From the NCBI GenBank assembly GCA_025363475.1, contig JANYDS010000088.1, forward strand, positions 1 to 42,767: a stretch of DNA of 42,767 bases, read 5' to 3'. Shown piece by piece: positions 34,981 through 42,767 of the stretch. The DNA comes from Terriglobia bacterium (lineage in GTDB: Bacteria; Acidobacteriota; Terriglobia; Bryobacterales; Bryobacteraceae). How positions within the stretch are numbered: position 1 is the first letter of the stretch; each line of letters begins with the position of its first letter. The notes beneath the pieces are model-generated. The model was not told the origin of the DNA and searched no databases. It worked only from the letters and a program-made list of their open reading frames with translations. The position numbers were made by a program, and so were the translations under genes.

Positions 34981-35659
34981 TCAGTAATCGGGTGTGCGAC
35001 ATAGAAATGGGGAACTGTCAAGGCGCACGTCAGTCAAACGAACCTGAGCGTACCCAGTACTTACAGGCTCTGGCTTGTGGGGCGGACCCCCCAGGTCCGC
35101 TGGCGACCCCACGGTCGCCCGTCCCGCGCTCGACCACCGATAGTCACTGGCTTCAACCACTAACCCTGCCCGCACGGGATTCCCCTCAATGTAATGCCGG
35201 ATCCTCTTGAATTCCGGCAAATGGCGCACCAGGTGGTCGTAGCTCTCTTCCTGCCAAAAGCGGCTTCCCGTCAGGGCCGGCATTGCGTTAGTTAGCCCGC
35301 CTGGCTGTGATGCCTTTCAACGATTTCGTCAGTTTGGGCAATGCCACGGCGGGAGTAACCAGCACATGAACGTGATTTGGCATGACCACGAAGGCGTGCA
35401 GTAGATAGTGCCCGAAGACATCGGGAGTTAGACGTCGGAGTTATAGTGGATTGCCTCCACGATCATGTCAGCGATGGCTGGCTGGCGAAGATAGACCGCT
35501 CCGAAGATAGACCGCCCCACCGCAGGCTTGGGCCAGCAGTCGATCCATGGCGGCAAATGCCTGTCCCGAACTGAGAGCGTCCGCCGGGAAGGCTCGACCG
35601 GGGGGCGGCTGCTGACCAAGAGGTCCGCCCCACCAAATCCGCATCACTCTATGTCGCAC
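34981..35659 (-). pseudogene. REP-associated tyrosine transposase (RAYT/Y1), broken by three tandem duplications
   Basis: Three minus-strand frames encode a Y1-type single-strand transposase: LSSGQAFAAMDRLLAQACGG, then AVYLRQPAIADMIVEAIHY, then HAFVVMPNHVHVLVTP (the HUH pair) and GSRFWQEESYDHLVRH (catalytic Tyr), ending EGNPVRAGLV...SDYRWSSA. Each frame change coincides with a tandem duplication: period 16 nt at 35487-35515, 14 nt at 35417-35443, and 4 nt at 35287-35294. Removing one copy of each (34 nt) leaves 645 nt, exactly 215 codons from GTG 35659, without internal stops at the joins. The first 20 residues do not look like the usual RAYT N-terminus, so this was probably replaced earlier. 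The gene is dead as it stands. Confidence 0.85.
35077..35119. repeat. REP-like double hairpin inside the element, with an inverted copy of one arm at 35622-35633
   Basis: Two adjacent hairpins, GCGGACC/GGTCCGC (35082-35100) and GGCGACC/GGTCGCC (35102-35119), are typical in size of REP palindromes. GTGGGGCGGACC (35077-35088) recurs inverted as GGTCCGCCCCAC at 35622-35633, so similar modules lie at both ends of the RAYT gene, as is usual for REP-RAYT loci. A 10-nt match (GGTCCGCCCC) also lies at 36725-36734. Confidence 0.65.
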
Positions 35660-35706
35660 ACCCTCAGTAATCCGATGCCTGTTGCGTTCGGCCCGTTACC
35701 GAAGCC

Positions 35707-35735: not shown

Positions 35736-35743
35736 GTTGCTTG

Positions 35744-36706
35744 ATGTCACCCGCGCGCAAACTCTTGTTTCTTACTCTGCTGCTTGTGCCCGTAGAGGCC
35801 ACAGCACAGGTCGCAACTGCACAAATCAAAGCGCAGCCAGATATCTCAGGCTACTGGTCGAATACCACCCTCACCCCTCTCGAACGGCCCCTGCAACTCG
35901 CCGACAAAGCGTTCTTTACAGACCGGGAAGCCTCTGACTACGAGCGCAACATCCTCGCGGCAGTTAACTACGACCAGCGTGATGCCGACCCCCAAAAGGA
36001 CGTCAACCGCTCTTACAACGAACTCTTCCGCGAGCGCGGCACTCTGGTGCCGGATAAACGCACGTCGCTGATCATTGATCCGCCCAATGGCAGAATGCCC
36101 CCCCTCACTCCCGAAGGGCAAAAGAAAGCCCAGGCCCGCGCAGATGACCGCCGCAAGCGCGGTGCTGACCCGGCCGATTCGTGGGAAGACCGGAACCTGG
36201 CCGAACGATGTCTGACCCGCGGGGCACCGAAGATCCCCGGTGGCTACAACAATAATTTCCAGATTCTGCAAACGCCGGGTTACGTGGTAATTGTTCAGGA
36301 AATGATTCACGAGGCCCGCATCATTCCTCTTGATTCCCGCCCGCACCCAGACCCGCGCGTTCACCTCTGGATGGGTGATTCGGTGGGCCACTGGGAAGGC
36401 AGCACCCTGGTTGTCGAGACCACTAATTTCGATGACCGCATCGTTGCCAACTCGTTTAACTGCTGCGGCCTCGCGGGCGAACACCTCAGCGTCACCGAAC
36501 GTTTCCGGCGGGCGAGCGCGAACCAGATTGACTATCAGTACACCGTGAATGATCCTGCCGTTTACACGAAGCCATTCACTGCATCAGTCCCGCTGACCCG
36601 GTTTGACGGACCGATTTATGAATATGCCTGCCACGAGGGGAATCTGGCGATGACCGGCATCCTGGCCGGTGCCCGAGCGCAGGAACGCGCTGCGAAGACC
36701 CACTGA
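35744..36706 (+). CDS. Secreted protein of unknown function (acidobacterial type)
   Basis: The protein is 320 residues from ATG 35744 (a TTG three bases upstream is less likely). A signal peptide is clear (RKLLFLTLLLVPVEATAQ). The mature part contains PDISGYWSNTTLTPLERP, LIIDPPNGRMPPLTPEGQ, RCLTRGAPKIPGGYNNNFQI, WMGDSVGHWEGSTLVVETTN and YEYACHEGN. These are motifs I know from a large family of secreted proteins repeated many times in acidobacterial genomes, usually annotated as hypothetical. Four Cys and several His could form a metal or disulfide site. No function is claimed. Confidence 0.82.
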   Translation: MSPARKLLFLTLLLVPVEATAQVATAQIKAQPDISGYWSNTTLTPLERPLQLADKAFFTDREASDYERNILAAVNYDQRDADPQKDVNRSYNELFRERGTLVPDKRTSLIIDPPNGRMPPLTPEGQKKAQARADDRRKRGADPADSWEDRNLAERCLTRGAPKIPGGYNNNFQILQTPGYVVIVQEMIHEARIIPLDSRPHPDPRVHLWMGDSVGHWEGSTLVVETTNFDDRIVANSFNCCGLAGEHLSVTERFRRASANQIDYQYTVNDPAVYTKPFTASVPLTRFDGPIYEYACHEGNLAMTGILAGARAQERAAKTH

Positions 36707-40313: not shown

Positions 40314-42767
40314 CTACTTCTTCAGCCCCGCAGTCCAGTTCTGCACAACCGTCAGTGGTTCGCCGGTTTCACCCGCCTGATTGATAACCAGAAACCGCTG
40401 CCCGTCGGCGGAGGCATCGTATGTCAGGCCGTTACCGAGAGTCAGGATGCCCCCGAACAGCGCCTCGACCTTGCCAACCTCCATACTCCCGTTCTTCGGA
40501 CTCATTTCTGCTGCCATCAGGTGTCTGTCCGGGGCGACATAGAACAGCTCTTTACCATCTACCCGCCAGCGCGCCAGCGTGCCTCCCGCCGCCGATACCC
40601 GCCGCTTCCCGCCCTGCCCCCCGCCCGGACCCAGGAACGGCGCAACATACACTTCATTCCTGCCGGACTCGTTCGACTGGAATGCGATCCAGTGGCCATC
40701 GGGTGAGAATTGCGGATAGCCCTCGTTAAATTCAGTACGCATGAAAGGCCACGGCTTCGAGGCTCGCGGAGTCCCCAGCGGCTCCGGCAAAATCCAGATG
40801 TCGTTCCCGGTCTTTGGATCGCCCACCGTAAAATACGCCAGATACTTCCCGTCTGGCGAAAAACTCGCGGGTATCTTTAGCAGATTGTCGGCATGGAACA
40901 GTTCTTCGTTCCGGGAACCGTCCGCAGGCTTGCGATACAGGTTGTCCGAGACATCCCCCGCACGCTTGGAACGGAATACGATCATGCGCCCGTCCGGCGA
41001 CCAGACCGGCGTTCCGTCATTCACCGGATCAGAGGTAAATCGCGTCTGCAGGCCGCGCAATACATCATAGAGCCAGATGTCGCCGCGGTACGTGCCCACC
41101 ACCGTCCTGCGATCCGGGGAAAAGTGCATGTTAATCAGGCTGCCCGAATCGCCCACCGTCCCGAGCGGTTTGCCTGTCCTGTCCCGCCATGTCAACCGCA
41201 AGTCGTTCGCGTTGCCCTTCTCATATACCAGGACTCCGGCCGCAACGGAAAACTTAGGCGCTTCGGATATCGAAGTCACTGTATTTTGTAAGCTCTCGGC
41301 GACGGGTACCGGGTCTCCGGTAAACGCCAGTCGTTTTGCGTCGAAGGGCCTTGCGACCAGTGTGGTGCCCCGCACCCACAACAGATATCCCTGTGTATAG
41401 ACAGCGAAACTATCGACGGTGTTCAATAAAATCCGGTCTTCCCCTGACGAGTCGTGAGTTAAGTCCCCCAGGGACGAATCCAGCGAACCGAGCCGAATGC
41501 TGTCGATGGTGCTGGTGCCGTCACCAAGGTAAAGAAAATGCCGCCCGTCGGGCAGGAACCAGGGGAACCGGTGGTGCGTCCCCGCCTTCGGGCCAACGCG
41601 GGTAACCGGGCGTGGGGTGCCGCCTGATGCAGGAATCTGTTGCAGCGCGGCGCCCTCCGGTGCAAAGACGATGATGCCCTCCTGGCTCCACGTTCCACCG
41701 CGCCCAATCGGAGCGTCTGCGAGCGGCGTCGCGGACCCTCCGGCGATGTCCATCCTCTTGAGTTTGCCGCCGCCGAAAAAGCCAATCGTTTTGCTGTCGG
41801 GCGACCAGAAGGGCAAGCTCGCTTCGTCAGTTCCAGACAGCGCCTGTGCAGTAAGACCGTCCAGCGGACGCAGCCAAAGCTGACTCTGTCCCTCCGCCGA
41901 AATTGCCGAAAAAACAACTAGCCTGCCATCGGGTGAAATAGCCTGTGGCCCGTTCGCCCGGCTGAATTGGAGTTTTTCCGGAAGATCAAGACTCAACCGT
42001 GTGACCGGTATTTCGAACGGCTTTTCGCGGAAATGAATGACCGCGAGAGCAGCCGCGAACATGATCGAGACTGCGGCAACAATCCACCCCGCCATTCTGA
42101 GCCGCGACCGTGAGGGAGCGGCGGCAAGATGCTCGGTATCCACCAGCAATTCCGCCCAGTCACCCATCCCGCGCAGCCGCTTGTTAGGGTCCTTCTCCAG
42201 GCATCGCCCGAGCAACCGTCGCACCTTCTCCGGTGCCAGCGTCAGGTCCGGGTCCTTCGTCAGAATCGCCGCCAGGGAATCCGTAACTGTCGCGCCGTCG
42301 AACAGCCTCTTCGCCGTCACCATCTCATACAGCACAACGCCAAAAGCCCAGATGTCTGCGCGCTTATCCACCACCTGCCCGCGCGCCTGTTCGGGGCTCA
42401 TGTACCCGGCGCTCCCCATGATCATGCCGGCAACCGACAACATCGTGGGTGAATCAGCGGTGAGTTCCTGCGCTTCACCCGCTTTCGCCAAACCGAAATC
42501 CAAAACCTTAACCGAACCATCGGGCCGGATTTTGACATTCGCCGGTTTCAGATCCCGATGTACGATCCCCTTCTCATGCGCCGCTTCCAAAGCATTGGCA
42601 ATCTGCTTCGCGATGACCAGAGCTTCACCGAGAGGAATCGCCCCTTGTTTGATCCGCTCGGCCAGGGTCAAACCCTCGATGTATTCCATTACCAGGTAAT
42701 CCGGACCAACATCAAACAACGTGCAGATATTGGGATGATTGAGCGCCGCAACCGCCCGCGCTTCAGT
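40314..42767 (-). CDS. Membrane Ser/Thr protein kinase with PD40 propeller (partial, N-terminus outside window)
   Basis: The frame is open to the right edge, where it begins inside the kinase N-lobe (TEARAVAALNHPNICTLFDV); the glycine loop and catalytic Lys lie beyond 42767. HRDLKPANVK, DFGLAK and MSPEQARG are present. A membrane helix (AGWIVAAVSIMFAAALAVIHF) follows and then a PD40 propeller (AISPDGRLVVFSAISAEG, FWSPDSKTIGFFG, FSPDGHWIAFQSNESGRNEV). It is clearly paralogous to the kinase at 36742-39291, which suggests tandem duplication with the Rpn gene now between them. It probably senses a signal outside the cytoplasmic membrane. Confidence 0.92.
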   Translation of the reverse strand, partial: TEARAVAALNHPNICTLFDVGPDYLVMEYIEGLTLAERIKQGAIPLGEALVIAKQIANALEAAHEKGIVHRDLKPANVKIRPDGSVKVLDFGLAKAGEAQELTADSPTMLSVAGMIMGSAGYMSPEQARGQVVDKRADIWAFGVVLYEMVTAKRLFDGATVTDSLAAILTKDPDLTLAPEKVRRLLGRCLEKDPNKRLRGMGDWAELLVDTEHLAAAPSRSRLRMAGWIVAAVSIMFAAALAVIHFREKPFEIPVTRLSLDLPEKLQFSRANGPQAISPDGRLVVFSAISAEGQSQLWLRPLDGLTAQALSGTDEASLPFWSPDSKTIGFFGGGKLKRMDIAGGSATPLADAPIGRGGTWSQEGIIVFAPEGAALQQIPASGGTPRPVTRVGPKAGTHHRFPWFLPDGRHFLYLGDGTSTIDSIRLGSLDSSLGDLTHDSSGEDRILLNTVDSFAVYTQGYLLWVRGTTLVARPFDAKRLAFTGDPVPVAESLQNTVTSISEAPKFSVAAGVLVYEKGNANDLRLTWRDRTGKPLGTVGDSGSLINMHFSPDRRTVVGTYRGDIWLYDVLRGLQTRFTSDPVNDGTPVWSPDGRMIVFRSKRAGDVSDNLYRKPADGSRNEELFHADNLLKIPASFSPDGKYLAYFTVGDPKTGNDIWILPEPLGTPRASKPWPFMRTEFNEGYPQFSPDGHWIAFQSNESGRNEVYVAPFLGPGGGQGGKRRVSAAGGTLARWRVDGKELFYVAPDRHLMAAEMSPKNGSMEVGKVEALFGGILTLGNGLTYDASADGQRFLVINQAGETGEPLTVVQNWTAGLKK

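Follow-up and report, generated by a model that had tools for sequence, protein, structure and literature searches.

RAYTs have a patchy distribution and are thought to be domesticated, and MIC231 is an example of a mobile insertion cassette. With regard to mobility, a 2018 survey (PMC6006769) reports, in its passage on this point, no evidence for movement of genes of the RAYT class and deduces that horizontal transfers took place; the motifs of TnpA-REP proteins used here, HUH, WQ, and Y, are taken from a passage of the same survey. The Mutator-type superfamily, which includes ISKra4, is characterized in the section of PMC3942029 that deals with it by inverted repeats of 18 to 39 bp and target duplications of 8 to 9 bp, and several ISKra4 members are stated there to insert upstream of promoters. 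We analyzed a stretch of 42,767 nt (the window) from a Terriglobia bacterium, corresponding to contig C64 in a genome of 4.16 Mb (G000; GenBank assembly GCA_025363475.1, contig JANYDS010000088.1) and which contains a broken RAYT gene enclosed by ISKra4-type ends. In structure, this is a known kind of element, a mobile insertion cassette; its RAYT passenger is what is unusual.

The element is 674 bp long and is bounded by perfect 16-bp inverted repeats, namely, GGGTGTGCGACATAGA at positions 34990 to 35005 and its exact complement at 35648 to 35663, with 642 nt between them. Flush outside both repeats lie 9-bp direct repeats, TCAGTAATC, at 34981 to 34989 and 35664 to 35672, which agree at 9/9 positions and have the same length as the 9-bp duplications of ISKra4 copies. 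An earlier sequence-only reading of this DNA had described these ends and flanking repeats, and its description holds to the base. The boundaries that it drew at 34990 and 35663 also stand: neither a related genome with the same sequence lacking them nor a copy in which homology continues past the repeats appeared, and the one other copy found in the same genome, on contig C88, stops exactly at the inverted repeat. The empty site that it predicted was not seen. A DNA search with the flanks in 151 genomes gave short flank matches only, and a protein search of 19 genomes of the genus yielded relatives of the downstream gene, around which 20 loci were fetched, each reaching ~1.5 kb to either side; of these, the window alone has the upstream gene adjoining. 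The insertion site lies between two divergently transcribed genes, with the element 52 and 77 bp from the two frame starts; a simple promoter scan of the stretch around the element returned no promoters. The downstream gene (35741 to 36706) has 34 matches, including itself, in its own genome at 1e-10, i.e., a large paralogous family, and no Pfam match.

Two nested pairs of ends are present in the element, the outer ISKra4-type repeats and an inner pair of inverted REP hairpins. Reading inward from the left, a left arm (34990 to 35076, + strand) is followed by a REP hairpin with a GTGG head (35077 to 35100, +), the RAYT (TnpA-REP) fossil (35101 to 35610, − strand), a second GTGG-headed hairpin (35611 to 35633, −), and a right arm (35634 to 35663, −) that ends in the terminal repeat. 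The two REPs, with heads at 35077 and 35633, flank the gene in inverted orientation with the GT(A/G)G head (GTGGGGCGGACC at 35077 to 35088 against GGTCCGCCCCAC at 35622 to 35633). All three TnpA-REP motifs, HUH, WQ, and Y (YIxxNP), occur in the fossil, split between frames: NHVH (~35377) lies in one, WQ (~35256) and YIEGNP (~35193) share a second, stops interrupt each of the three frames, and the window has no intact RAYT reading frame. A 100-aa piece matches the family NF047646 (REP_Tyr_transpos) at 1.1e-9 with a score of 38.3, under the curated cutoff of 80, which two relatives also fail to reach (70.8 in G066 and 78.9 in G019); the piece matches no Pfam family. A 16-bp tandem duplication (94%) lies within the fossil at 35486 to 35517. 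No reading frame of transposase size is listed in the 674-bp element that could be a DDE transposase gene, and the searched piece matches only REP_Tyr_transpos. The earlier description of the cargo as a degenerate RAYT is thus borne out by the motifs in two frames and the stops in all three; its further view that a RAYT was the only cargo holds for the gene itself and overlooked the inverted GTGG-headed hairpins on either side.

At the DNA level, the fossil is 77% identical to the RAYT region of G019 and 73% identical to that of an element on contig C286 of G066, whose RAYT is open over 244 aa. Matches to this REP type number 157 in G066 (control, 0), 12 in G019 (control, 2), and 4 in G078. 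In the window's genome, the right REP of the element itself is the sole match to the REP pattern at ≤2 mismatches, which fits the arrival of the RAYT in the window's lineage as cargo, without the founding of a REP population there.

We then compared the outer ends with those of insertion sequences in the same genome, which has four paired ISKra4-type elements (C19, C43, C8, and C20). The one on C19 (C19:9868-11699) is an ISKra4 copy of 1,832 bp flanked on both sides by the 9-bp duplication AACTTTAGG, and one of its ends, the left, is identical to the left terminal repeat of the window element at 16/16 positions; repeats of this type are present at both ends of the latter. Its 435-aa transposase matches NF033572 (transpos_ISKra4) at 2.3e-82, above the cutoff. 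The C43 element is a second full-size copy, these two being the full-size relatives with a transposase gene in this genome; that on C8 (1,617 bp) has a partial transposase match, and that on C20 (301 bp) is internally deleted. Among the four, only C19 shows the 9-bp duplication, which is absent at C43, C8, and C20. ISKra4 transposase matches over the cutoff occur at three places in the genome, two of them without a stop. The C19 and C43 copies have ...ACATGAA at the 5′ end and ...ACATAGA at the 3′ end; in the window element, both ends read ...ACATAGA. The end pattern at ≤3 mismatches gave 19/14 matches in this genome against 19/14 for the reversed control, i.e., no excess, and at 1 mismatch 4/2 against 0/0; hence, only near-exact and paired matches are counted as evidence here. 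A lone ISKra4-type end (L035:2034-2053; C63:7833) is identical at 20/20 positions to the left end of the window element, its interior being nonhomologous, and no partner end was found within the stretch examined.

The left arm can be related to ISKra4 more closely through a subterminal motif, CTGAGCGTA-n5-TACTTACAG (35044 to 35066, +), which we read as the decayed counterpart of a palindrome that ISKra4 has upstream of its transposase. The motif CTGAGCGTA lies 54 bp inside the end in the window and 54 to 56 bp inside one end in 11 of 14 short complete elements, the search patterns having permitted a wide range of spacings. Of 14 places that combine motif, REP, and an end, 12 show the spacing of 54 to 56 bp, the other two being L257 (31 bp) and L253 (46 bp); a count of bare arm-plus-REP-head places was discarded as evidence (27 against 23 for the reversed control), and only the 14 with an end were used. 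In ISKra4 itself, the palindrome stands 52 to 55 bp from the end at 9/9 ends tested, with 8 to 9 of 9 pairs formed and ≤0.8% of shuffles as good; this 9/9 is partly selected, as the ends on C19, C43, C8, and C20 were taken regardless of the motif and five further loci were drawn from the 7 of 30 found to carry it. At 15 other ends, most of them found by a pattern that selects for the presence of the motif and leaves its spacing free, 5 to 8 of 9 pairs form, and 2 of the 15 pass the 5% level of shuffles. The window palindrome forms 6/9 pairs and is no better than shuffles (50%), so that the homology of the arm rests on its position and on the linked series of elements. Homology of the arm extends to C88 (97%) and G055:C14 (76%), in both of which it starts at the inverted repeat, and to G066:C286 from base 41 on. 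Because the motif occupies the position of the ISKra4 palindrome, the left arm is best read as the putative equivalent of the ISKra4 5′ end, with the RAYT unit standing where the transposase gene would be.

Further copies of the composite were found, one of them complete. On contig C286 of G066, a genome of another genus, a 797-bp element with ISKra4-type ends has its own duplication, ACGCCCAGG (9/9), and contains, in order, arm, REP, an open 244-aa RAYT frame, REP, and right end. This frame matches PF01797 above the cutoff and continues through REP and arm beyond the end of the element; two TAG codons of the aligned stretch precede its ATG. Two deletion derivatives in the same genome, at C474 (278 bp; duplication, 8/9) and C634 (254 bp; duplication, 9/9), have lost neither REP and still contain the RAYT's 3′ portion; counted along the C286 element, the right part of each starts at base 702, and the same piece is found at a contig end on C134. 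The C88 copy in the window's genome is partial, with 302 bp at 95% identity running from the terminal base of the repeat, an unrelated outer flank, and its other half missing. Arm, REP, and RAYT are also joined in G084:C427, where the left end would fall off the contig and no right end was seen, and three arm-plus-REP copies lie at or near contig ends in G055 (C14, C336, and C95).

As to the location of the C88 copy, the last 141 bases of the window (42627 to 42767) are identical to the last 141 of C88, reversed, and C64(+) and C88(−) are probably neighbors in the assembly graph; such adjacency would put the partial second copy no more than ~1 kb from the window's end and give it the orientation of the first. 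Separately, C88 contains, ~600 bp from the partial copy, a stretch that matches at 88% the 3′ terminus of the gene following the element (36595 to 36705). The order is the same on both contigs, a hint of local duplication, the breakpoint of which would fall exactly at the inverted repeat.

Ends of this kind also occur in other genomes. In relatives, 6 of 30 fetched ISKra4 loci have paired GGGTG..-type ends with perfect 9-bp duplications; the other 24 gave no clean case, because the fetched stretch showed only one end or a duplication was absent (L222 deviates by one base). A census of fetched loci, at ≤3 mismatches per end, gave 20 distinct elements with ISKra4-type ends and flanking duplications of 8 to 9 of 9 positions; the control 9-mers taken 20 bp further out agreed in 0/75 pairs (+ strand only). 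The combined end-plus-motif pattern occurs at 21 places in 13 of 237 genomes of the family (reversed control, 0), of which 6 show duplications of 8 to 9 of 9, 5 have a second end without a readable duplication, and 10 have no second end, some of the last being cut by contig ends. ISKra4 transposase is represented in G066, an assembly 84% complete, by a 67-position remnant only, and none was recovered in G055, G286, or G193 at 1e-20. At one further locus (L131; G288:C838, from 6248 downward), for which no second end was found, an ISKra4-type arm is followed by a frame whose product, judged by eye, is similar to MazF/PemK-like proteins.

As to other cargo, related short elements contain inverted REP-like pairs of other sequence. 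Ten short complete elements were fetched without asking for REP or RAYT; judged by eye, six (L077, L112, L127, L113, L191, and L194) contain inverted REP-like pairs, of three sequences in all, and in four (L095, L183, L192, and L196), such pairs are not clear. The window, L260, L266, and L147 are left out of this count, having been found via REP or RAYT queries. Where measured, the pairs begin ~88 to 100 bp from the end; they may reflect either a preferred landing site or hitch-hiking. The pair in L113, L191, and L194, TATCAGGGCAC.., is unrelated to the GTGGGGC type. Among the elements searched, RAYT coding sequence occurs only in the window, C88, G066:C286, and G066:C474, a result that is based on 24 of the 30 RAYT queries (the other six, L150, L157, L165, L167, L170, and L174, were read antisense). 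The elements form a series of nesting that runs from the full composite through deletion derivatives with both REPs and short elements with other REP-like pairs to short elements with none.

We interpret the window element as a non-autonomous ISKra4-derived element, in form a mobile insertion cassette, with REP-RAYT-REP in place of the transposase region, and give this reading a probability of about 0.88. The ends of the composite were probably recognized in trans by the DDE transposase of an ISKra4 element (Mutator superfamily), which would have inserted the composite between the two divergent genes and duplicated 9 bp; the RAYT and its REPs would have been passengers, and the gene would have decayed after insertion. 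The short element probably existed first and received the RAYT unit later, and the RAYT itself is likely to have taken no part in the move. The sequence-only reading had offered capture of a RAYT by a non-autonomous cut-and-paste element as one possibility; capture agrees with our results, which add ISKra4 as the family, with cut-and-paste as one possible pathway of its movement. Its other possibility, a new RAYT-linked element type, is right in that the composite recurs and wrong in that the ends are not the RAYT's own, given that the same ends bound ISKra4 and RAYT-less short elements.

The order of events could also have been local: a RAYT-less ISKra4-type element might have landed between the two genes and a REP-RAYT unit entered it on the spot, so that the composite never moved in this genome. 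Short elements with neither a RAYT nor a GTGGGGC REP do exist (G245, L196, and G171), and the RAYT-region tree unites the three arm-bearing RAYTs in 0% of 200 bootstrap trees, while one clade is not rejected (p-AU, 0.15), so that a single RAYT capture is neither supported nor rejected by it. Nevertheless, such local nesting is very unlikely, since C88 has the same arm-REP-RAYT order elsewhere from the same base, G066:C286 has the same left arrangement with a duplication of its own, and RAYT remnants stand at two further G066 sites with duplications. A very unlikely reading is that the terminal repeats belong to the RAYT, as in the TIR-associated tyrosine transposases, and that the RAYT moves the unit as a TIRtron. 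TIRtrons have been described, Acidobacteria included, in the relevant passage of PMC3733652, and the RAYT does lie between repeats in both the window and G066:C286; however, ISKra4 insertion sequences and short RAYT-less elements have ends of this kind, too, the motif GGGGWSAS is missing from the repeat GGGTGTGCGACATAGA, the RAYT is already flanked, within the element, by inverted REPs of its own, and the 9-bp duplications fit ISKra4 and not a single-strand Y1 enzyme as characterized in the part of PMC2817692 that treats it. Moreover, when 90 RAYT loci (30 plus 60 from a ranked list, the best matches among those listed) were scanned, the arrangement proved rare: paired ISKra4-type ends were found at one locus, G066:C286, and neither such a pair nor a near-exact single end at the other 89, some of which are cut by contig ends. 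A REP-RAYT unit lacking such ends lies on G019:C78, where the RAYT between the REPs is open and homology with the window does not extend past the REP. A chance origin, in which the inverted and the direct repeats that surround the RAYT remnant have no relation to each other, has a negligible probability. The composition-based expectation is 1.3e-7 per window for perfect inverted repeats of 16 bp that lie within 2 kb and are bordered flush by direct repeats of 9 bp, and chance is refuted by the recurrence of the composite in other genomes, G066:C286 in particular.

The series amounts to one element family nested in another. A RAYT within insertion sequence ends that are flanked by target duplications, its frame being open in one genome and broken in a second, gives concrete evidence of a possible route for RAYT movement and makes the question of RAYT mobility testable. 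We tentatively suggest, as a possibility that we hold to be rather doubtful, that ISKra4-derived short elements serve as a standing vehicle for REPs and RAYTs: several unrelated REP-doublet types and at least one whole REP-RAYT-REP unit share the slot just inside the subterminal motif, where perhaps a hairpin-forming stretch is a preferred RAYT landing site, and RAYTs might travel via a borrowed DDE transposase and would die, as in the window, wherever their REPs did not spread. No report of a RAYT inside ISKra4 ends was found among the abstracts and passages searched in an open-access library.

Several described systems resemble the window element in part, each compared here on the basis of the cited passages. 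ISKra4 insertion sequences (p-MULT 4 group of the Mutator superfamily; PMC3942029) are alike in ends, in the 9-bp duplication, and in the subterminal motif near the 5′ end, whereas the window element has REP-RAYT-REP instead of a transposase gene and measures 674 bp against ~1.8 kb. Members of the IS200/IS605 group have, in the account of PMC2817692, neither terminal inverted repeats nor a larger target duplication, while the window element has both. REPtrons, RAYTs flanked by inverted REPs (described in part of the same source, PMC2817692), share the inverted GTGG-headed REPs and the HUH, WQ, and Y motifs; in contrast, the unit in the window lies within a second, outer pair of ends with a target duplication, and its gene is broken. 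The TIRtron or TIRYT class calls for a subclass 2.1 protein with an HTH domain. TIRtrons or TIRYTs, as outlined in passages of PMC3733652 and PMC6006769, likewise place a RAYT-like gene between terminal inverted repeats and are known from Acidobacteria, but the window repeat has no GGGGWSAS and is common to ISKra4, and its REPs lie inside. REP dimers within longer palindromes (GTAG-15 of A. variabilis and CGTC-1 of H. neapolitanus; PMC3733652) also show REP pairs regularly inside another repeat, although the passage on them names no insertion sequence family or target duplication and no RAYT inside. Mobile insertion cassettes and MITEs with a passenger, such as the qnrS2 cassette presented in an excerpt of PMC5444012, have IS-like ends around the passenger and lack a cis-encoded transposase of that family, as does the window element, in which the passenger differs in being a transposase gene of another class with inverted REP ends of its own.
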